A stretch of 53,223 nt of DNA from a virus: the IMG/VR virus record IMGVR_UViG_3300048999_000018, positions 1-53,223 of that record, one strand, 5' to 3'. Positions 20,212 to 51,345 of this stretch are shown here, one piece after another. Within the stretch, counting starts at the first letter, position 1; the number at the start of each line of letters is the position of its first letter. The notes beneath the pieces were generated by a model. The model saw only the letters and a list, made by a program, of their open reading frames with translations. It did not search any database and was not told where the DNA came from. The position numbers and the translations under genes were made by a program.

Positions 20212-21032
20212 TAGTCAGCGCCTTGGTCAAGGACCTTCTCGGAGTACATCCCCATGTCCCGGACAATCTCGTAGTCGGTCCTGAAGCGCTCAGACCGAAT
20301 GTACAGCACGTTGGGGTCTCCGTCAGCTCCAGCGAGCTCGGCGAACTTCATCAGATTGGTGAGTCCGATGGTATCATTCACTCGTTCGAGCTGAATGTCA
20401 GCCTGGTTGGTCACCACACCATCGACATCATAGTAGGTCACCGTCTCCTGGTCGTAGTCCAGTTCAGCGCTCATGAATGTGTCCTGACTGATGACGTACG
20501 GAGCCTTGTGCTGGGGCGGGAGCTCCTCACCAGGGATATCCGACTTGAGAGGCACAATCGTACGAGCCTCGGGAACCTTGGGTGACTTCGACTTGCTTAC
20601 GTTGTTGTAGAACACCCGCTCGGGCTGCTTCTTCTCGGATCGAGGAGCAGGCTTCTCTTCGACGACTTCCTCGGTTGTCCTGCTCAGCTTCGGAGGCTCG
20701 TTGATTCCCGCGTAAGACAGAAGAGCGTCAGAAGCCTCTTCGACCATCGTGCTGGGTACGGTCTCTTCGGCGACCTCGTTCAAATCGACCGGCTTCTGCT
20801 TCTCCAAGGCCTTAATGAAACTCTCATCGCTAACGGCCGCAGCCATCAAGCTCTCTTCGAGCTTCTTCTCGTACAAGCCCTTGTAGAACTCCTTGGTCTT
20901 CTCCGTCTCCTCCTGCAGCATCTCGGCGTATACGTGCTCGAAACGCTTTTTGGTGGCGAAGTAGCCGAGTCCGACGCCGGCCGCGGAACACAGTGACGCC
21001 GTGGCGATTACGATTTGGTTCTGGGTGATCAT
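20211..21032 (-). CDS. Membrane-anchored conserved phage protein
   Basis: 273 residues. An N-terminal membrane segment (IVIATASLCSAAGVGLGYFA) leads to a coiled-coil-like charged linker and a C-terminal domain ending VLYIRSERFRTDYEIVRDMG, which is conserved across many phages. ATG at 21032 has GGAG 7 nt upstream; a GTG one codon earlier overlaps the previous stop. It pairs with the DUF6353 gene, so both may form a membrane complex. Confidence 0.7.
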   Translation of the reverse strand: MITQNQIVIATASLCSAAGVGLGYFATKKRFEHVYAEMLQEETEKTKEFYKGLYEKKLEESLMAAAVSDESFIKALEKQKPVDLNEVAEETVPSTMVEEASDALLSYAGINEPPKLSRTTEEVVEEKPAPRSEKKQPERVFYNNVSKSKSPKVPEARTIVPLKSDIPGEELPPQHKAPYVISQDTFMSAELDYDQETVTYYDVDGVVTNQADIQLERVNDTIGLTNLMKFAELAGADGDPNVLYIRSERFRTDYEIVRDMGMYSEKVLDQGAD

Positions 21033-21964
21033 CACTCTTCTCCGTTCCCAAGCAAGTCGTAGACGATGCCGTCGACGTTGAAGTCCAAAATGGTAGACTT
21101 CTCTGCGCCGTTGACGAACTGCTGACCCATGTAACCATTGCGCTTGCCGTTGAGAACGCCGAAGTCAATGACGCTGTCTCCGCCACGAGGATTGTCACGA
21201 ACCCATCCGACGATAGCGCCGGCCTTGGTACGAGACAGACCCAGTGCGTCGTAGACCTCGTTCAGGAACACGTGGCCTCGACCGTTGAGCAGATCGTTCA
21301 TGTACATCTGCTGAGACCGGATGAACATGGAGTTGTACGAGGGTTCCGGAGACCAGTTGTCAGAAGCGCCCTTCTCGAAGATCCGAGCGTAGATCGAGGG
21401 GAACTGCTTCTTGTCGAGTTCACGAACAGTCTTGACCGCGATACCCTCATCGGTCTCGACGGCGATTTCCTTCTCGACTACGCCGAAGCGGAACTCCTGG
21501 TCCTTGTCCTCGCCGTACTCCTTGACGACACGTGCTCGGTAGTCCTTGAAGCCCTTCTCCACTGCAGCGTAAGCCGCGGTTAGAGCAGCATTCCGACGAG
21601 TCAGGATGACGTGAGATCCGGTCAGGCAGCCGACAGAGACGACACCGACAATGAACGCCGGCGCGTAGAGCTGAGCGATCTTCGACGCAGTCTTCACACG
21701 AACGAGAAGACGGTCCTTCTTGCTGTCCTCGTCAGTGTAGTCCTCGCGCTCAAGATTCTCGGCGGCCTTGATCTTGTTGTTATCTTCGTCGGCCTCCTTC
21801 AGAACCTGATCCATCTTGAGAGTTGCGTGGCTTGCGAGTACCACCGTGGCGACGAAGCCCACAGCTCCGACCCCGAATAGCAGCACCGGAGAGTGCTTCT
21901 GCGTGATCAGGACCTGTCGACCCACCTTGCTGGTGATCGAGTTCCTGAGAGCCTTGACGTTCAA
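21032..21964 (-). CDS. DUF6353-type membrane protein
   Basis: 310 residues with two membrane segments (PVLLFGVGAVGFVATVVLAS; YAPAFIVGVVSVGCLTGSHV) separated by a charged loop, then VILTRRNAALTAAYAAVEKG and a soluble C-terminal domain. This matches the phage DUF6353 arrangement. TTG start at 21964 chosen because TTGA overlaps the upstream stop and AAGGAA precedes it. Function unknown; a paralogue lies at 24585-25364. Confidence 0.7.
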   Translation of the reverse strand: MNVKALRNSITSKVGRQVLITQKHSPVLLFGVGAVGFVATVVLASHATLKMDQVLKEADEDNNKIKAAENLEREDYTDEDSKKDRLLVRVKTASKIAQLYAPAFIVGVVSVGCLTGSHVILTRRNAALTAAYAAVEKGFKDYRARVVKEYGEDKDQEFRFGVVEKEIAVETDEGIAVKTVRELDKKQFPSIYARIFEKGASDNWSPEPSYNSMFIRSQQMYMNDLLNGRGHVFLNEVYDALGLSRTKAGAIVGWVRDNPRGGDSVIDFGVLNGKRNGYMGQQFVNGAEKSTILDFNVDGIVYDLLGNGEE

Positions 21965-22158
21965 GAGCTTTCCTTCCAAGAGTTTTCTTTCCTAACGGGA
22001 ATGCACGGGCAGTCGTCTTTTCCGCAGTTGTACCGAATGCCGCGGTAAATACATCCGCCGCGCTCTAGGTAGTCCTGGAAATCGAATCGATCGTAAAACT
22101 TGAGCAAGGCATCTCGGCTCATCACGCCTACGAAGACACCAACGAGGAACTTGAGCAA
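21961..22158 (-). CDS. Small membrane protein with cysteines
   Basis: 65 residues: short N-terminal hydrophobic segment (MLKFLVGVFVGVMS) and a cysteine-containing tail (GGCIYRGIRYNC; CPCIPV). TTG start with AGGAGAACG. Unknown function. Confidence 0.6.
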   Translation of the reverse strand: MLKFLVGVFVGVMSRDALLKFYDRFDFQDYLERGGCIYRGIRYNCGKDDCPCIPVRKENSWKESS

Positions 22159-23142: not shown

Positions 23143-23177
23143 TAGGGGTCTCATTATAGCCCCTGTTATTACTGCGA
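23143..23177 (-). promoter_or_regulatory. Promoter-like cassette, copy a
   Basis: Minus-strand order: TCGCA, an A-rich spacer with ACA and GG, TATAAT, then GAGACCCCTA, and 13 nt later the ATG. The stop codon of the upstream gene lies inside the element. One of eight near-identical copies. Confidence 0.75.
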
Positions 23178-24584: not shown

Positions 24585-25364
24585 TCAGTGAAGCCGGCTG
24601 TAGTTCCTTACCGGCCTGGCGCTGAACGTGATGGAGATGCATGGACGTCCATCGTCGGAGAGAGTTGTCGAGTAATCGACCTTGAGCAATTCGTCCGTGT
24701 TCCAGCCAATCTCATCGGACTCATCCGTGCGAGCAAGTCCGATCAGGTCGTAGTAGTCAGTCAACGGTGCGTACGTGTTGTTGATGACCTGTTCGTTGAT
24801 GTCATTCACGGCCTTTCGAAGCGTTTCCATGTCGCTTTTGAAATATCGGCCCGTGAATGCATCGAAGCAGAGTACCTCGTGTGGCATGAGGATGATTTCC
24901 TGCTTCGTGCTGGGGGTCTTATCGACCTTTTCCTGCGCGAGCTCGTCTCGAACCGTCTGCTCCTTCTTTTCCCCGAACTTCGCGAGTACCTTCCCCTTGT
25001 ACTCTTCGTAAGCCTTTTCGGAGAGAGAATATGCGGAAGCCAAAGCCGCCGCGCGACGTGTTCCGATGTGATTCGCGCTGATGATCGCCGTAATCGTCAG
25101 AGCTGCACTTGCCGCCGCAGGTACGTATAGCTTCCAGACGAGTTCGGCCTTCTCCTTGAACGGGATGTCTTCGAATTCGTCTTCGGTGTGTCCCTCAAGG
25201 AACTGGTTGCGCTCAAGAGCCAGTATCTCGGCTGCCTTGAACGAGGCCTTCCCAGTGAGATATGCGGTAGTGATAGCGCCGGTAACACCGATTGCCGTCA
25301 GAATCGCAGGAGTGTTGTCGCCGGCGAGTTTCCCGGCACGCTTGGCTAGTATGCCAAGATTCAT
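24585..25364 (-). CDS. DUF6353-type membrane protein, second copy
   Basis: 259 residues. Two membrane segments (TPAILTAIGVTGAITTAYLT; YVPAAASAALTITAIISANH), the internal HIGTRRAAALASAYSLSEKA that parallels the RRNAALTAAYAAVEKG of the protein at 21032-21964, and a soluble domain with CFDAFTGRYFKSDMETL. Membrane protein of the phage DUF6353 family; role unknown. Confidence 0.72.
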   Translation of the reverse strand: MNLGILAKRAGKLAGDNTPAILTAIGVTGAITTAYLTGKASFKAAEILALERNQFLEGHTEDEFEDIPFKEKAELVWKLYVPAAASAALTITAIISANHIGTRRAAALASAYSLSEKAYEEYKGKVLAKFGEKKEQTVRDELAQEKVDKTPSTKQEIILMPHEVLCFDAFTGRYFKSDMETLRKAVNDINEQVINNTYAPLTDYYDLIGLARTDESDEIGWNTDELLKVDYSTTLSDDGRPCISITFSARPVRNYSRLH

Positions 25365-26158: not shown

Positions 26159-26193
26159 TAGGGGTCTCATTATACCCCATGTATTTTCTGCGA
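26159..26193 (-). promoter_or_regulatory. Promoter-like cassette, copy b
   Basis: TCGCA, A-rich spacer ending TACATGGGG, TATAAT, GAGACCCCTA on the minus strand, directly before the gene starting at 26145. A terminator hairpin lies just upstream at 26202-26239. Confidence 0.75.
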
Positions 26194-26450: not shown

Positions 26451-26485
26451 TAGGGGTCTCATTATAGCCCCTGTATTTCTTGCGA
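26451..26485 (-). promoter_or_regulatory. Promoter-like cassette, copy c
   Basis: TCGCA, A-rich spacer ending TACAGGGGC, TATAAT, GAGACCCCTA, upstream of the gene starting at 26436. It begins directly after the stop of the 26487 gene. Confidence 0.75.
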
Positions 26486-26486
26486 A

Positions 26487-26681
26487 TTACTGTTCCCAAC
26501 CGTCCATCCACTCGTCAATTGACATGGGAGCGTATTCGTCTGCCGGCCAAACGCTACAAGGGCTAACGGGATTAGCCATGATCCAATCAAGAATTTCGTG
26601 ATCGGTTCCCTTGAACAAGGGCTTCATTTTTCGGTCAAGAACTGTCCCGCATTTTCCATATTTATCGGCTCGTCTAACCAT
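26487..26681 (-). CDS. Small protein of the DRMKPxFxG family
   Basis: 64 residues: VLDRKMKPLFKGTDHEILDW then IMANPVSPC, closely matching VLDDRMKPVFNGTPEETEKW of the protein at 7699. ATG overlaps the NlpC/P60 stop (TGATG). Function unknown. Confidence 0.65.
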   Translation of the reverse strand: MVRRADKYGKCGTVLDRKMKPLFKGTDHEILDWIMANPVSPCSVWPADEYAPMSIDEWMDGWEQ

Positions 26682-27160
26682 CAGTATCTCCCGTATACCG
26701 CTGTCGAGCCACCCGTCGTGTACTCAGAAATCGGGGCGTTGATGACTACCTTGTAACCTCGGTAACTTCCGGTGTTGGCGTTGGTCATTACGGCCTTACC
26801 ACCGAAAATGCCTGTGAATATACCCACATGGTAAACATGGCCGCTGCGGTCTTTGATGAACACCAGATCACCGATTGCACGAGAACCAGCGCTTATGTGT
26901 TTGGACTTGTTGTACTGATCCTGCGCAGTGCGAGGCAAAGTCTTTCCGTGTGTCTTGTACGCCCACCACACAAGTCCAGAGCAGTCATAACCCTTGACGT
27001 AACCGCCCTCAGCACCGTACGTGTACTTCGCGCCCTTTTGACCGTGAGCACTTACCATGGCTGCGTTCCTGAGCGTTGCAGCATTTGCGTCTGGGATGGA
27101 AAGAAAGAATGTTCCGAATGCCAGACCAAATATGACTGCGAGCTTTATGGTGCTTTTCAT
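26681..27160 (-). CDS. Secreted NlpC/P60 peptidase
   Basis: 159 residues. Signal peptide: MKSTIK, hydrophobic core, likely cut after DANA (about residue 27). NlpC/P60 domain: GYDCSGLVWWAYK with catalytic Cys60, then GDLVFI and HVYHVGIFTG with His111. Such enzymes cut peptide bonds in cell-wall peptidoglycan. Placed outside the tail and endolysin modules and exported on its own, it might alter the host wall during infection, help lysis or block superinfection. Start 27160 is chosen for the signal peptide; the ribosome site is weak. Confidence 0.85.
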   Translation of the reverse strand: MKSTIKLAVIFGLAFGTFFLSIPDANAATLRNAAMVSAHGQKGAKYTYGAEGGYVKGYDCSGLVWWAYKTHGKTLPRTAQDQYNKSKHISAGSRAIGDLVFIKDRSGHVYHVGIFTGIFGGKAVMTNANTGSYRGYKVVINAPISEYTTGGSTAVYGRY

Positions 27161-27210
27161 GATACTACCCAATCGGTTGAAGGAGATATTACTGAAACAT
27201 GCCGATTCGC

Positions 27211-27336
27211 TCAGGGAATTTCTTTTGTGCTTGGTAGAACGACCGGCAGGCATATACTGAAGCCTTTTGTCCGGGAGGTATCAGCCTCCAATATCCCCCA
27301 CGCTTTTTCCACTTGCCACTTGTTCTTGGCGGGCAT
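27211..27336 (-). CDS. Possible tiny protein
   Basis: 41 residues (MPAKNKWQVEKAWGILEADT, then a hydrophobic SICLPVVLP). It fills the 190-bp gap between two genes and has GAGAGGATTGGG upstream. No family and no membrane segment of full length, so it is only a candidate. Confidence 0.35.
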   Translation of the reverse strand: MPAKNKWQVEKAWGILEADTSRTKGFSICLPVVLPSTKEIP

Positions 27337-28246: not shown

Positions 28247-28281
28247 TAGGGGTCTCATTATATGCCGTGTTTTTTCTGCGA
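28247..28281 (-). promoter_or_regulatory. Promoter-like cassette, copy d
   Basis: TCGCA, GAAAAAACACGGCA, TATAAT, GAGACCCCTA on the minus strand; AGGAG and the ATG follow within 14 nt. Confidence 0.75.
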
Positions 28282-28287
28282 AGACGA

Positions 28288-28317
28288 AACTCAAAGCCCT
28301 TGTTAGGGCCCGGAGTT
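28288..28317 (-). terminator. Terminator hairpin, conserved-loop type
   Basis: Stem with outer AACTC/GAGTT (28288-28292, 28313-28317) and inner GCCC/GGGC around TTGTTA. It follows the stop of the gene at 28333. Confidence 0.65.
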
Positions 28318-28332
28318 GGTTGTGAGGGTTGT

Positions 28333-28572
28333 CTACTTGTTGTCGGCGCTCTTGGTCTTCTTGACGGCGATCTCACCCAGAATGTCAACGACCTTTATGG
28401 CAACGATGATTACACCGACCGTGATGGCAGTGCGCTTCAGAACGTCTTTAGCGATCTCAGTTACGAGTTCACCAGAGGCGGTTCCGATTCGCTCTTCCAT
28501 GGTGGCGGATGAATCTTTGTTTTCTTTGGGGGTCTTGACGAGTACGGGCTTGATAGCGTAGCGGTTAAACAC
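28333..28572 (-). CDS. Single-pass membrane protein
   Basis: 79 residues: polar N-terminal half (VLVKTPKENKDSSATMEERI), a membrane-like segment (TAITVGVIIVAIKVVDILG) and a basic tail. GTG start behind promoter cassette e. Unknown function. Confidence 0.62.
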   Translation of the reverse strand: MFNRYAIKPVLVKTPKENKDSSATMEERIGTASGELVTEIAKDVLKRTAITVGVIIVAIKVVDILGEIAVKKTKSADNK

Positions 28573-28586
28573 GGCGTTCCAATCTG

Positions 28587-28621
28587 TAGGGGTCTCATAA
28601 TAGGCCGTGTTTTTTCTGCGA
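28587..28621 (-). promoter_or_regulatory. Promoter-like cassette, copy e
   Basis: TCGCA, GAAAAAACACGGCC, TATTAT, GAGACCCCTA; identical to copy d outside two positions. It precedes the gene starting at 28572. Confidence 0.75.
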
Positions 28622-28655
28622 AGTTGTTAGAGATCACTCTCATTTTGACGAAACA

Positions 28656-28678
28656 TAAAGGCCGGGTTAGGGCCTTTA
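28656..28678 (-). terminator. Terminator hairpin, conserved-loop type
   Basis: Perfect 8-bp stem TAAAGGCC/GGCCTTTA with loop GGGTTAG. It ends the transcript of the tiny gene at 28691-28804 and lies before cassette e. Confidence 0.8.
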
Positions 28679-28690
28679 GAGGTTTCGAGA

Positions 28691-28804
28691 TTACTGCTTG
28701 AGTTTCCGGTCGAACACAGCGTCGGCGAGATCCATCCAGTCGTCGGTGTGCGTGTGGTGCTTCGCGATGGTGGATTGGATTACTCGAATCAGCTTCTTCA
28801 ACAT
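28691..28804 (-). CDS. Tiny protein with its own promoter and terminator
   Basis: 37 residues, beginning MLKKLIRVIQSTIAKHHTHT and ending DAVFDRKLKQ: an amphipathic, basic helix then an acidic one. It is too short for standard gene calling, but it sits precisely between promoter cassette f and a terminator hairpin, like its longer neighbours, which strongly supports it. Function unknown. Confidence 0.6.
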   Translation of the reverse strand: MLKKLIRVIQSTIAKHHTHTDDWMDLADAVFDRKLKQ

Positions 28805-28818
28805 GGAAGGGCCTTTCG

Positions 28819-28853
28819 TAGGGGTCTCACTATAATCCTTGTAATTCCTACGA
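28819..28853 (-). promoter_or_regulatory. Promoter-like cassette, copy f
   Basis: TCGTA, A/T-rich spacer, TATAGT, GAGACCCCTA: the most diverged of the eight but still clear. AAAGGCCC and the ATG at 28804 follow. Confidence 0.7.
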
Positions 28854-28865
28854 TTGGCCAAAACG

Positions 28866-28888
28866 TAAAGGCCGTGTTAGGGCCTTTA
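28866..28888 (-). terminator. Terminator hairpin, conserved-loop type
   Basis: Perfect stem TAAAGGCC/GGCCTTTA with loop GTGTTAG, followed by CGTTTTGG; follows the stop of the gene at 28903. Confidence 0.8.
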
Positions 28889-28902
28889 GAGGTTCTTGAG
28901 AT

Positions 28903-29133
28903 CTACTTCCTGTTGAAGTCGTCGACGAACAGTCCGACGCCGGGGTAGAAGTCGTACGTCCATCCCTCGTCCTTGGCCTTGCTGATGGCGCGTCCCATGT
29001 TGTCTCGGCCGTCCTTTAGGTCCTTTCGGTCCTTGGCGACGACAGCGAGAATGCCGATGGTGGCGACAGCAGTCACGAGTTCAGGAGCGTGAATGGTGAT
29101 GTACGACTTGACTTTGGCGATCTTCTTGTTCAC
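28903..29133 (-). CDS. Small membrane-associated protein
   Basis: 76 residues: a basic start, a hydrophobic helix (APELVTAVATIGILAVVA), a charged helix and YDFYPGVGLFVDDFNRK. GTG start with AAAGGAACCC behind cassette g. Single-gene unit with a terminator after it. Unknown function. Confidence 0.62.
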   Translation of the reverse strand: MNKKIAKVKSYITIHAPELVTAVATIGILAVVAKDRKDLKDGRDNMGRAISKAKDEGWTYDFYPGVGLFVDDFNRK

Positions 29134-29147
29134 GTGGGTTCCTTTCG

Positions 29148-29181
29148 TAGGGTCTCATTAAAAGCCATGTTTTTCTTGCGA
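29148..29181 (-). promoter_or_regulatory. Promoter-like cassette, copy g
   Basis: TCGCA, A-rich spacer ending ACATGGCT, TTTAAT, GAGACCC-TA (one C shorter than the others). It precedes the GTG start at 29133. Confidence 0.7.
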
Positions 29182-29195
29182 ATGCGAAAAAACAA

Positions 29196-29232
29196 AGGGC
29201 ATGTAAGAGTCGTTTAAACTCTCGCACGCCCT
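29196..29232 (-). terminator. Terminator hairpin
   Basis: Outer AGGGC/GCCCT (29196-29200, 29228-29232) and inner AGAGT/ACTCT stems, followed on the minus strand by TTTGTTTTTTCG. It ends the transcript of the 29268 gene. Its loop differs from the TTAGGG family. Confidence 0.7.
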
Positions 29233-29267
29233 CTGCTTTTCGATTTCCTGCTGTGGGTCTGTTTGTG

Positions 29268-29558
29268 TTACCTGGGCTTCAGAACGAAGCCGATTGCCTT
29301 CGAAGTCACGATATGGACTCGCTCGAAGTTCAAGATCATCAGGATACCGGCGAGGTTCCCTGCGACGACGGCCAACGTGTCCGGACTTACACGGCTCGGA
29401 GATTCGATCTCCTTGAGCTTGTAGAGCTTGGTCAGTTGGTCCGCCATCGCGGCGAATTCGGGGGTACCGCTGTTGGTCTCAGACATCTGAGTGAGAACCT
29501 TGGTGATGACTTCGTCGAGGTGAGTCGGCGATTCGATCTTGGTCTTCAGGGTGTACAA
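29268..29558 (-). CDS. Conserved small phage membrane-associated protein
   Basis: 96 residues. VSPDTLAVVAGNLAGILMIL then NFERVHIVTSKAIGFVLKPR is a pattern widespread in phages, with one hydrophobic segment and a conserved basic end. TTG at 29558 is chosen because AAGGAG lies 6 nt before it and a longer frame would run back into the promoter cassette. Function unknown. Confidence 0.7.
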   Translation of the reverse strand: MYTLKTKIESPTHLDEVITKVLTQMSETNSGTPEFAAMADQLTKLYKLKEIESPSRVSPDTLAVVAGNLAGILMILNFERVHIVTSKAIGFVLKPR

Positions 29559-29573
29559 AGCATACTCCTTACA

Positions 29574-29608
29574 TAGGGGTCTCACTATACCCTATGTATT
29601 ATATGCGA
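29574..29608 (-). promoter_or_regulatory. Promoter-like cassette, copy h
   Basis: TCGCA, spacer ending TACATAGGG, TATAGT, GAGACCCCTA; rightmost of the eight copies, before the TTG start at 29558. Confidence 0.75.
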
Positions 29609-29619
29609 CCCCGGAAAAA

Positions 29620-29868
29620 CTACTCCGGAACGATTGGAGCAGTCTCAGCGATCGATTTATGAGCCCACATCGAAGCTGCTTCCAGTTCCGTGAAGGCTAT
29701 AGTTTTGGCGCGACCCTCATTGGGGAGGACAATGTCCAAGTATTCAGCAAACTCGATGAACTTAAACCGAAGTTCCGCATGTTTCGGAAGTGTCGCATTA
29801 GAACCTTCGATAGTTCCCTTGTGGAAACCGAATCGGTTCTCAATTTCTTCTTTTCCAAGATCAGCCAT
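29620..29868 (-). CDS. Acb2-like protein, candidate anti-CBASS nucleotide sponge
   Basis: 82 residues. NRFGFHKG near the start, then RFKFIEFAEYLDIVLPNEGR and AFTELEAASMWAHKSIAE match the pattern of the small Acb2/Vs.4 helical hairpin family (RFxxHxP, lA..ld...P..REks.A.T.LEeA.mWANaaIA). Known members bind cyclic di- and trinucleotides made by host CBASS and block signalling. Length fits (usually 60-100). It follows the holin with ATG after AGGAGAACA. Sequestration by this protein is inferred. Confidence 0.68.
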   Translation of the reverse strand: MADLGKEEIENRFGFHKGTIEGSNATLPKHAELRFKFIEFAEYLDIVLPNEGRAKTIAFTELEAASMWAHKSIAETAPIVPE

Positions 29869-29875
29869 TGTTCTC

Positions 29876-30259
29876 CTACTGCGGAATCGTGCCGGGAACT
29901 ACCTTGAACTTGGCATCGGTCTGTGTATCCAGAGCATGAGCCGCTGCTTCAGAGTTCATCGCCACTTGAATGGTCTTGAAACCATCCTCAGTCTGACCCA
30001 CGAGCAAATCGCCGGCATACTTGGCGTCACTCGCATTGTACGAGGCCTGTGAAACACCCATCAAACCGCCCATGAAGACGTTCACAGCGGCGATGGAACC
30101 GACTACCTGTTCCGCGTTCGGGAGATGCCAGAGAGACGCCAGAGCGAAGTACAGCGCTCCAACAGAAGGGAGTCCGATCGCGGATATGTGCTTCAGAATC
30201 GTGTAATACCGATCACTGAGAAGGGGGCGTTTGCCTTGCGTCTCCGACGAGTTGGACAT
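29876..30259 (-). CDS. Holin
   Basis: 127 residues. RYYTILKHISAIGLPSVGAL then YFALASLWHLP and VVGSIAAVNVFMGGLMGVSQ form the two membrane segments and spacing of r1t-type phage holins. It would make the pore that lets endolysin reach the wall. Start at 30259 is chosen for GGGAAGGG and the short cytoplasmic N-terminus. Adjacent to a second membrane protein. Confidence 0.78.
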   Translation of the reverse strand: MSNSSETQGKRPLLSDRYYTILKHISAIGLPSVGALYFALASLWHLPNAEQVVGSIAAVNVFMGGLMGVSQASYNASDAKYAGDLLVGQTEDGFKTIQVAMNSEAAAHALDTQTDAKFKVVPGTIPQ

Positions 30260-30608
30260 TGCTGATGACCCTTCCCTGATCGTTCGTGAATATCCCGTTG
30301 TACTCGGTATGTGGCCTGAATGGAAGAGTTTCCACCTCACGCATGATGCGTTTGGCGACGCCGTTACCACCCAAAGCCGCATATGGATCGAAGAAGTATT
30401 CGCGGAAATCTTCGAGTTCGTCTTTTGTGATAGATCCGCGTTCTATATAGGTGAGGCCCAACGTCGTGATCTTGTCATACGCAACGCCCATCAGGAGACG
30501 CGTTGTCGCATTTCTCTTCGTGTCCTTACTCTGCAGAAATGCCCAGAGACCACCAGATCCGAGAATCGAACCGAATATGATCACCAGCATTCTTGCCCAT
30601 ACATCCAC
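30213..30608 (-). CDS. Lysis-module membrane protein, holin-like
   Basis: 131 residues. N-terminal membrane helix (MLVIIFGSILGSGGLWAFLQ), then TTRLLMGVAYDKITTLGLTY, IERGSITKDELEDFREYFFD and GGNGVAKRIMREV, a family that sits beside holins in many phages. GTG with AGGGGAGGATATTTC. It overlaps the holin by 47 nt. Probably a second holin or holin partner. Confidence 0.68.
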   Translation of the reverse strand: MDVWARMLVIIFGSILGSGGLWAFLQSKDTKRNATTRLLMGVAYDKITTLGLTYIERGSITKDELEDFREYFFDPYAALGGNGVAKRIMREVETLPFRPHTEYNGIFTNDQGRVISNVQLVGDARQTPPSQ

Positions 30609-49042: not shown

Positions 49043-49951
49043 CTACTTCTTCAACAGACCAGCAACTTGCTTTGCAGCTACTCCGGCCGCAGCCTTTGTG
49101 AGTTCTTGCTTGCCGATGCTCAGAAGCGTGTCTGTAATGAACTTGGTGGTTGCCTTCCGACCGGTTGCCGGCTGAAGACGAGTGAATTGCTGTTCCAAGT
49201 TCATCCTCGTGACGAGATCCTGAAGCTCTTTAGTAGTGAGAGCCTTAGTGCCTCCGGACTTCACCTTGGCCTTGGACTCAGCGGCTCGTTGAGCATCATC
49301 AGAAGACGGATGTGCCGTCGGAGTTCCCTTGCCTCCACGAACACCCCACTTCATACCCTTGACGCCGAAATGCTCAAGAACGTCATCTACAGCTGCTCGG
49401 CCCAGATCGGCCTGAGACACAGCAACCTCCATGTCGCCTGAGTATTCGAGCTTGAATGTGGGACCCGCTGAGTCGCTCGTCCACAAAGCGACTCGATCGA
49501 AGTTCACCCACGAGAATCCAGGGAATTCTCTGTCGTCCTTCTTGGCTGGGTTGTCCGGGAACCCCATCGTCAAATGCGGATTCCACTCGTCGAACTGACT
49601 CGTCGATAGAAAAGCTTTCGAAATCAGTTCGTTCTTCAGAAGCTGACCGCGGAATGTATCCACAGCCTTAGTCCACTTCTTGTTGAAGAACAATACATCA
49701 GCTTGGCTTGTTCCCAACACACCGCGTTCCTTCACTTCCAGCCCGAAAGGCTGAAGCAGAGAAGCCGCATGTTCTACGAATCCAGTGACGAGAGTCAACT
49801 CAGACGCGTCATAACCAGGAGAACCCAAGTACAAAAGAGTCAAGTGTGGTTCTTTATCACTTGAGAATTTCAGCACTGGATCAGATTCGGGCGGGAGAGC
49901 TACGATGACAACCTGTTGATTCTTACCGACTAGGGATTTGGGTTCGTCCAT
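49043..49951 (-). CDS. 2H phosphodiesterase fused to a HFGVKGMKWGVR domain
   Basis: 302 residues. Two HxT motifs, EPHLTLLYLG (His36, Thr38) and WNPHLTMGF (His126, Thr128), define a 2H phosphoesterase, the fold of RNA ligases/cyclic phosphodiesterases and of phage Acb1, which destroys CBASS signal nucleotides. Residues 190-205 hold VLEHFGVKGMKWGVR, a motif repeatedly seen on phage structural-region proteins, then a helical tail. Its place between connector and terminase suggests it may be packaged in the virion. Substrate unknown. ATG chosen for AGGGGGATTC. Confidence 0.8.
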   Translation of the reverse strand: MDEPKSLVGKNQQVVIVALPPESDPVLKFSSDKEPHLTLLYLGSPGYDASELTLVTGFVEHAASLLQPFGLEVKERGVLGTSQADVLFFNKKWTKAVDTFRGQLLKNELISKAFLSTSQFDEWNPHLTMGFPDNPAKKDDREFPGFSWVNFDRVALWTSDSAGPTFKLEYSGDMEVAVSQADLGRAAVDDVLEHFGVKGMKWGVRGGKGTPTAHPSSDDAQRAAESKAKVKSGGTKALTTKELQDLVTRMNLEQQFTRLQPATGRKATTKFITDTLLSIGKQELTKAAAGVAAKQVAGLLKK

Positions 49952-50295
49952 GAATCCCCCTCTCTCACAACGTTGAGACGCCATTCAAGTTCTTTGATCT
50001 GCTTGTCCATCGCATCGAGAACGAAAGAAGTAATCGTGGCGTTATCGAATAGAAGCCGAACTCTGAGACCTATGTAACTCTTGACAGAAATCAGTCTCAA
50101 ATCATCACCGAGAAAGGCGTCCCACGTGGGGGTAGAATTCTCGATCATGTAACCTTCAGGCGGACCGATACCCAGTTGAGTAAGAGTCGAGAACACTGAG
50201 TTGATGTGCAACAGAATAACGGGATCGAAAACCGTTAGACTCGCATCGACTCCGAGAATGTTTTTGATACTTGTCAGAATGCTGGTTTCAGCCAC
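49930..50295 (-). CDS. Head-tail connector (gp6-like)
   Basis: 121 residues, all-helical: SILTSIKNILGVDASLTVFD, ILLHINSVFSTLTQLGIGP, VKSYIGLRVRLLFDNATI and IKELEWRLNVVRE are typical of siphophage connector proteins. GTG at 50295 has AAGGAGG 8 nt upstream. Unusually it lies before the terminase instead of after the capsid gene. Confidence 0.75.
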   Translation of the reverse strand: MAETSILTSIKNILGVDASLTVFDPVILLHINSVFSTLTQLGIGPPEGYMIENSTPTWDAFLGDDLRLISVKSYIGLRVRLLFDNATITSFVLDAMDKQIKELEWRLNVVREGDSWTNPNP

Positions 50296-50506
50296 GGTGA
50301 ACACCTCCTTCGATTTGTCGTTTCCATCTGTCTCGCCACGCTGTTTGGATATCGGGCGTTGAATTCAACCCGTAATCGTAAGTGCCCAAGCAGATAGGAC
50401 AATTAACGCGAGGAGGTGAAGATGCGCAAACTGGACAAAACTTGAAAAGCAAACGCCAACGTCCTTGAAGGCGGAGAGGCCAGTTTAGGATGCGGGCGCT
50501 TTTCAT
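50288..50506 (-). CDS. Small zinc-ribbon protein
   Basis: 72 residues with FCPVC and NCPIC, two Cys pairs 11 residues apart, a compact zinc knuckle. ATG overlaps the endolysin stop (TGATG). Possibly a structural or DNA-contact factor. Confidence 0.65.
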   Translation of the reverse strand: MKSARILNWPLRLQGRWRLLFKFCPVCASSPPRVNCPICLGTYDYGLNSTPDIQTAWRDRWKRQIEGGVHRG

Positions 50507-51345
50507 CAGAGCAGCTTGTTGACTTCGGTCTGAACAGCCTTGGGGTCATAACCGGCAGACTTGAGTCGGTTGACTCGGTTGCTGCCGTTACCCCACAGGC
50601 CGGCGATGACCTCCTTGGCGACCTGAGTCACCGTCTTCTTCGGAACGGGAGCCTTGCCCATCTGACGGTTGACCTCGCCCTGGACGGCGTCGGCGTTGTA
50701 ACCAGCCGCGGTGAGAAGCTTGACACGCTCGGCGCCACTGCCCCACTTGCCGGCAATGACCTCCTTGGCGACCTGAGCGATCGACTTTGAAGACGAGGGA
50801 GAAGTCGGCGTAGATCCGGGGTCTGAAGTGAACTCGTCGTATGCCTTCTGGGCCTCGGCGATGATCTTGGAAAGATTCTTGACGACGTACGGACCGGGGC
50901 ACTCAGTGGCAGACCAGTGCTTGTGACCGAACACGTTCTTGTCACTTGGCCGAGGCGTCTTGTCGATGACGTGAGCGAAGAGCCACCCGATAAGTCGAGC
51001 AGTCGCCTTCCAAGTCGTCTCGGAAACCGTCCAGTCGGGCGAGAACGTCACATTGGCCTGCTCGATGCTGATGCTGCTCTGGTTGCCGTCCTTGTCTCCG
51101 ACAGCCCAGGCGTACTCACTCGCCTTGACGTACTGAGCGACGTTGCCCTTGGCATCCACATCGAAGTGAGCGGAAGCAGCTCGGGTTCGCCAAACAGAAA
51201 GCAGGCCTTCGTGCGTGAGATTGCCGGCGTTGTGATGGACCGTGACGGACGTCTTCTTGTACGAAGTGTGCGTGACGTGTCCAGTGGCACTCAGTTCGGG
51301 AATGAAGTTCTTGACGGTCTTGTCGTATGCGATCGTCTCGCCCAT
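50506..51345 (-). CDS. Endolysin: N-acetylmuramoyl-L-alanine amidase with CW_7 repeats
   Basis: 279 residues. Amidase_2 domain (about 20-155): SVTVHHNAGN (His37, His38) and GHKHWSATECPG (His141/His143, Cys149) supply the zinc site. A Ser/Thr/Pro linker leads to two ~42-residue repeats (AQVAKEVIAGKWGSGAERVK and TQVAKEVIAGLWGNGSNRVN) of the CW_7 cell-wall-binding type. It cuts the bond between muramic acid and peptide at lysis. No signal peptide, so it needs the holin. Confidence 0.9.
   Translation of the reverse strand: MGETIAYDKTVKNFIPELSATGHVTHTSYKKTSVTVHHNAGNLTHEGLLSVWRTRAASAHFDVDAKGNVAQYVKASEYAWAVGDKDGNQSSISIEQANVTFSPDWTVSETTWKATARLIGWLFAHVIDKTPRPSDKNVFGHKHWSATECPGPYVVKNLSKIIAEAQKAYDEFTSDPGSTPTSPSSSKSIAQVAKEVIAGKWGSGAERVKLLTAAGYNADAVQGEVNRQMGKAPVPKKTVTQVAKEVIAGLWGNGSNRVNRLKSAGYDPKAVQTEVNKLL

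Follow-up and report, generated by a model that had tools for sequence, protein, structure and literature searches.

By sequence, an 82-residue protein encoded on the minus strand of this virus genome (the window, IMG/VR record IMGVR_UViG_3300048999_000018, 53,223 nucleotides in full) is a further member of the known Acb2/Tad1 hairpin family, and it probably sequesters cyclic-oligonucleotide signals, a sponge role to which we assign a probability of about 0.72. Characterised hairpin proteins of the Acb2/Tad1 type sequester alarm molecules of bacterial anti-phage defence. The open reading frame lies exactly where the first-pass annotation had put it (29620-29868, minus strand, 82 aa), and its translation from an ATG start, MADLGKEEIENRFGFHKGTIEGSNATLPKHAELRFKFIEFAEYLDIVLPNEGRAKTIAFTELEAASMWAHKSIAETAPIVPE, contains all three peptides quoted there. 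The features referred to below are:

29576-29612, minus strand: inverted repeat GGGGTC...GACCCC containing ATAGTGAGACCCCTA, between the hairpin gene and the next gene
29620-29868, minus strand: Acb2/Tad1-hairpin protein (putative cyclic-nucleotide sponge), 82 aa, from the ORF, PF24729 and phrog_1454
29647-29712, minus strand: C-terminal helix R53-A74, aligned without gaps to Pseudomonas Acb2 R67-A88 (hhalign, MAFFT)
29647-29796, minus strand: hairpin domain, residues 25-74, matching PF24729 positions 8-57, with helices predicted at 27-47 and 53-74
29803-29835, minus strand: subfamily N-terminal motif RFGFHKGTIEG, residues 12-22, with F15 (or F13) as candidate ligand-stacking aromatic
29873-29877, minus strand: Shine-Dalgarno AGGAG of the hairpin gene, overlapping the holin stop codon TAG (29876-29878)
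29876-30382, minus strand: holin (Phage_holin_Dp1; PF16938, E = 1.6e-17; phrog_9233, holin), adjoining the hairpin gene upstream
49043-49984, minus strand: 2H-phosphoesterase-fold protein with a DUF7211 tail (HFGVKGMKWG), adjoining the terminase; no member of the Acb1 family

The first-pass annotation had read the protein as an Acb2/Vs.4 helical hairpin and had proposed a profile search, and the curated profile, profile-profile comparison and predicted topology agree on this assignment. The Pfam model PF24729 (Acb2_Tad1_hairpin) matched with 47 bits (E 2.9e-12), above its curated cut-off of 27 bits; T4 Vs.4 scored 71.4 against the same model for comparison, and all 39 subfamily members in our alignment matched it. 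The protein also matched phrog_1454 (E = 3.8e-21). In hhalign, the subfamily profile aligned to the Vs.4 family with P 1.1e-6 (score 37.3; maximum among shuffled controls 17.2) and to Pseudomonas-type Acb2 (score 28.0; shuffled maximum 18.7) with P 8.7e-5, or 1.6e-6 when a broader actinophage profile was used. As all 100 column-shuffled controls run for each family scored below the observed value, the family resemblance to Acb2/Vs.4 is, at the level of sequence profiles, far above chance. The top PDB match of the subfamily profile was ‘Acb2 homolog 43’ (9ptq, E 0.0021), which the family profile alone reached, a phmmer search of the PDB with the single protein giving no relevant match; the related Gordonia phage protein Remus gp51 found 9ptq (8.5e-5) and, weakly, Tad1 (0.09). 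Homolog 43 (76 aa) shares the motif LPxGRxKSv...T.LEeA with the window protein.

Structure prediction provided additional support for this interpretation. The AlphaFold2 monomer model (pLDDT 84.9) comprises helices at residues 5-13, 27-47 and 53-74 and no strands, and this predicted arrangement is the published Acb2 topology, a short helix with a pair of long antiparallel ones (PMC12043709; PMC10419184). Fold searches with the monomer turned out to be uninformative because helical hairpins this small resemble many unrelated bundles: the Foldseek matches at E<=10 included no Acb2 chain, and in VIA-align Tad1 (Z 4.4) ranked under many unrelated helical bundles.

Correspondence with proven sponges can be followed residue by residue in the last helix. 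Vs.4 of phage T4 forms a hexamer with three ligands and binds cGAMP at ~30 nM; its residues A66, A73 and A77 are hexamer residues, S74 is a ligand contact, and mutation of interface residues or of S74 impairs CapV inhibition (PMC10097602), while T68M weakens binding (PMC12657230). Three MAFFT modes agree in aligning A58, T60, A65, S66 and A69 of the window protein with Vs.4 A66, T68, A73, S74 and A77, and K71 with R79, so that the hexamer-interface alanines are kept as A58, A65 and A69 as judged from the alignments alone. As aligned, the last helix retains positions at which Vs.4 mutants no longer assemble into hexamers or bind ligand less well. Akin to Vs.4 (PDB 7UQ2; PMC10097602), the protein has a PF24729 hairpin, a short helix with two long ones, and an ASMWA motif in the last helix. 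It differs from Vs.4 in having little identity beyond this helix, a shorter hairpin loop, another N-terminal motif, and a late gene by the holin as opposed to a place in the vs region. The second stacking residue, Vs.4 F82, is replaced by Ala (A74 in the window protein). This residue does not define the Acb2 family, since Acb2 of Pseudomonas phage (p26, PDB 8H2J/8IXZ), a known binder, likewise has Ala there; the same protein aligns gap-free with the window protein (R67-A88 to R53-A74) and carries a basic residue at the R79 position.

By analogy with these proteins, the product would most likely assemble as a homohexamer that binds, without cleaving them, the cyclic-nucleotide alarm signals of its actinobacterial host; cyclic di- or trinucleotides of CBASS are the most likely ones. 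With the signal sequestered, the cell-killing effector would stay off and the phage could complete its cycle.

The N-terminus differs in sequence from those of Vs.4 and Pseudomonas Acb2, and the N-terminal half of the ligand pocket gives no confident alignment. R12, F13, G14, H16, E21 and G22 are invariant in 39/39 members, and the N-terminus that reads KIKGYRDLSQEEID in Pseudomonas Acb2 is EIENRFGFHKGTIEG in the window protein. In the Pfam register, F14 of the relative L034 (equivalent to F15 here) falls on PF24729 profile position 2, which corresponds to Vs.4 Y8 provided that the first two columns are gap-free. The aromatic stacking position (Vs.4 Y8, Pa Y11) would accordingly be F15 by Pfam and R12 or S23 by MAFFT, and for the Vs.4 contacts Y8, H11 and K23 the MAFFT registers disagree and allow no confident placement. 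Placing all Vs.4 ligand residues by alignment thus succeeded in the last helix and failed at the N-terminus, and a by-eye reading of R34 as K23/K26 was given up in view of the conflicting registers. With the N-terminal registers in conflict, and with fold searches of the monomer that do not favour Acb2 over other folds, ligand and activity are what we infer.

An N-terminal pocket unlike that of Acb2 would be the reason to consider a sponge for another signal, for example the Thoeris (g)cADPR messengers or another nucleotide messenger. The domain is common with Tad1 (PDB 7UAV, 8SMD, 8KBF), which has the PF24729 hairpin and accepts gcADPR as well as cyclic oligonucleotides as ligands (PMC12043709); the weak Remus gp51-Tad1 alignment (E 0.09) extends in front of the hairpin, and the invariant RFGFHK motif is specific to the subfamily. 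We nevertheless judge this reading rather unlikely: the N-terminal beta-sheet domain that precedes the hairpin in Tad1 is absent from the 82-aa protein, its C-terminal helix is most like those of Vs.4 and Acb2, and among PDB sequences an Acb2 homologue matches best.

Relatives at 63-71% identity, annotated ‘hypothetical protein’, occur in phages of Streptomyces (Bing, Rima and others), Corynebacterium (PSonyx) and Microbacterium (Quhwah, NoodlelyBoi). Searching onward from Remus gp51 leads to a more distant ring, which comprises 394 phage records, mostly of Mycobacterium, Paenibacillus and Gordonia, and includes Henry gp99 (PF24729 at 5.1e-16). Acb2-like genes have been described from actinophages before, Xandras gp101 and BigBubba gp102 of Mycobacterium cluster E having been published as CBASS antagonists and putative Acb2 (PMC11953737) and a gene of Microbacterium phage Statler as putative Acb2 (PMC13348362). 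Henry gp99 is the apparent cluster E counterpart of the Xandras and BigBubba genes, and its phages appear to belong to the same group; the subgroup in which the published cluster E and Statler genes would fall is more distant (<=~40% identity), and the present subfamily is not named in the literature that we found.

Among related phages the gene sits at no fewer than four different places (>=4). It lies directly ahead of the terminase in L028, L029, L031 and L035, no more than a few kb from the DNA polymerase in L036, L054, L055 and L066, and by the capsid protease in NoodlelyBoi, L060 and L061, and with such neighbours it has no fixed partner. Exactly one copy was present in each of the 19 gene-bearing records scanned, and the window record likewise has a single one. 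In Bing the gene (gp31) separates the holin from gene 32. ClubPenguin and SendItCS belong to the same genus, but in them the gene 32 homologue comes straight after the holin; the intergenic element is retained, and neither record has a PF24729 match. Presence or absence at one site, together with the varied places, fits an accessory counter-defence gene, and we favour a single-gene counter-defence module over a structural or lysis partner. A prophage origin was considered and set aside, as patterns of this subfamily found no close relatives in 84,980 bacterial and archaeal genomes (one per species), a result that speaks for these patterns only.

These contexts also bear on the idea that the hairpin fold serves without nucleotide binding, an ability lost or never had, and that the protein acts elsewhere, for instance in lysis or in the virion. 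The position directly 3' of the holin in many phages and the absence of the F82 stacking residue would fit such a role, but the gene precedes the terminase or lies near the DNA polymerase or the capsid protease in related phages, and it is missing from sister phages whose lysis cassette is intact, which makes the idea improbable. A lysis partnership with the neighbouring holin in particular was rejected on account of the variable context and the empty site in the sister phages.

The ORF is a genuine, conserved gene. Its start sits shortly 3' of the holin stop codon, and its full-length relatives share 48-82% identity (n = 39 aligned members). Against the nearest relative, L001, codon changes comprise 30 synonymous and 15 non-synonymous ones, and codon positions 1, 2 and 3 differ 13, 8 and 39 times, respectively; this excess of synonymous changes and the 39 third-position differences among 60 argue that the protein is under purifying selection. 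A chance ORF with a coincidental resemblance, for which small size alone speaks, is refuted by the 39 aligned relatives, purifying selection, the ribosome-binding site and the curated Pfam match, and its probability is practically nil.

The inverted repeat at 29576-29612 is kept in sister phages with or without the hairpin gene. A short intergenic element (consensus ATAATGAGACCCCTA) recurs in the window at seven places on the minus strand with <=2 mismatches (23143-23157, 26159-26173, 26451-26465, 28247-28261, 28587-28601, 28819-28833 and 29574-29588); with <=3 mismatches there are 10 matches in all, against 0.8 expected by chance. At least four of the copies, at 28247-29588, lie just ahead of small genes, and the element has the look of a promoter or a leader repeat. 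Its last copy, which closes the holin-hairpin gene unit, has been conserved among sister Streptomyces phages. Elsewhere on the minus strand, the 879-aa product of 446-3085 matches phrog_4291 over its full length (E 0; label RNA-dependent RNA polymerase) and is possibly a phage-encoded RNA polymerase; 21032-21979 and 24585-25364 encode two proteins of the uncharacterised family phrog_2152, the second also with DUF6353 (PF19880). Two peptidoglycan hydrolases are encoded far apart on this strand, an amidase that carries CW_7 repeats and lies past the terminase (50506-51345) and an NlpC/P60 protein inside the small-gene array (26681-27253).

The first-pass annotation had further proposed that the sponge and a 2H enzyme at 49043 act as sponge and hydrolase against the same type of signal, a sensible idea given that T4 carries both Acb1 and Acb2 (PMC11722364). 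A 2H protein is indeed present (49043-49984, minus strand): its 2H domain spans residues 21-195 and has two HxT motifs, in which both H and T are invariant among 51 sequences, and the domain model (pLDDT 88.7) matches 2H proteins with a Foldseek E of 8.4e-8 and a VIA Z of 13.4, so that the product is, by its predicted fold, a true 2H-fold protein. Acb1 (T4 57B, PDB 7T26) has the same fold and the two HxT motifs. As opposed to Acb1, the window protein lacks the Acb1 profile PF23474 (no match at E<=1, and none in a six-frame search, with T4 57B detected at 2.7e-60 as positive control), carries a C-terminal DUF7211 tail, lies beside the terminase, and is nearer in fold to LigT and YjcG, the nearest structures being YjcG, plant CPDase and LigT (Z 12-13) and Acb1 reaching Z 8.8. 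The two genes occur together in 3 of 30 records that bear the hairpin gene. We have therefore rejected the proposed pairing as unsupported, in view of the missing PF23474, the LigT/YjcG-like fold and this rare co-occurrence. DUF7211-type tails occur in phage head-region proteins and the ReqiPepy6 homologue of the 2H protein is annotated as a virion structural protein; tail, terminase-side place and homologue suggest that the 2H protein is head-associated, possibly a virion-associated enzyme. In one related record (L002), a DUF7211 protein without a 2H domain lies directly before the hairpin gene and the terminase.

Taken together, counter-defence by signal sequestration becomes the probable function of a gene whose product is entered as ‘hypothetical protein’ in 28 or more records of Streptomyces, Corynebacterium and Microbacterium phages (>=60% identity). 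The gene also suggests that immunity based on nucleotide signals exerts real pressure on actinophages. Bing on the one hand and ClubPenguin and SendItCS on the other, with the gene present and absent, respectively, are natural test pairs. More tentatively, and with some doubt on our part, the RFGFHK-type proteins may represent a distinct mobile branch of lytic-actinophage sponges that travels as a lone gene between four or more places in the genome, with an N-terminal pocket and a ligand preference of its own; if so, its ligand could reveal nucleotide signals that actinobacteria use against phages.
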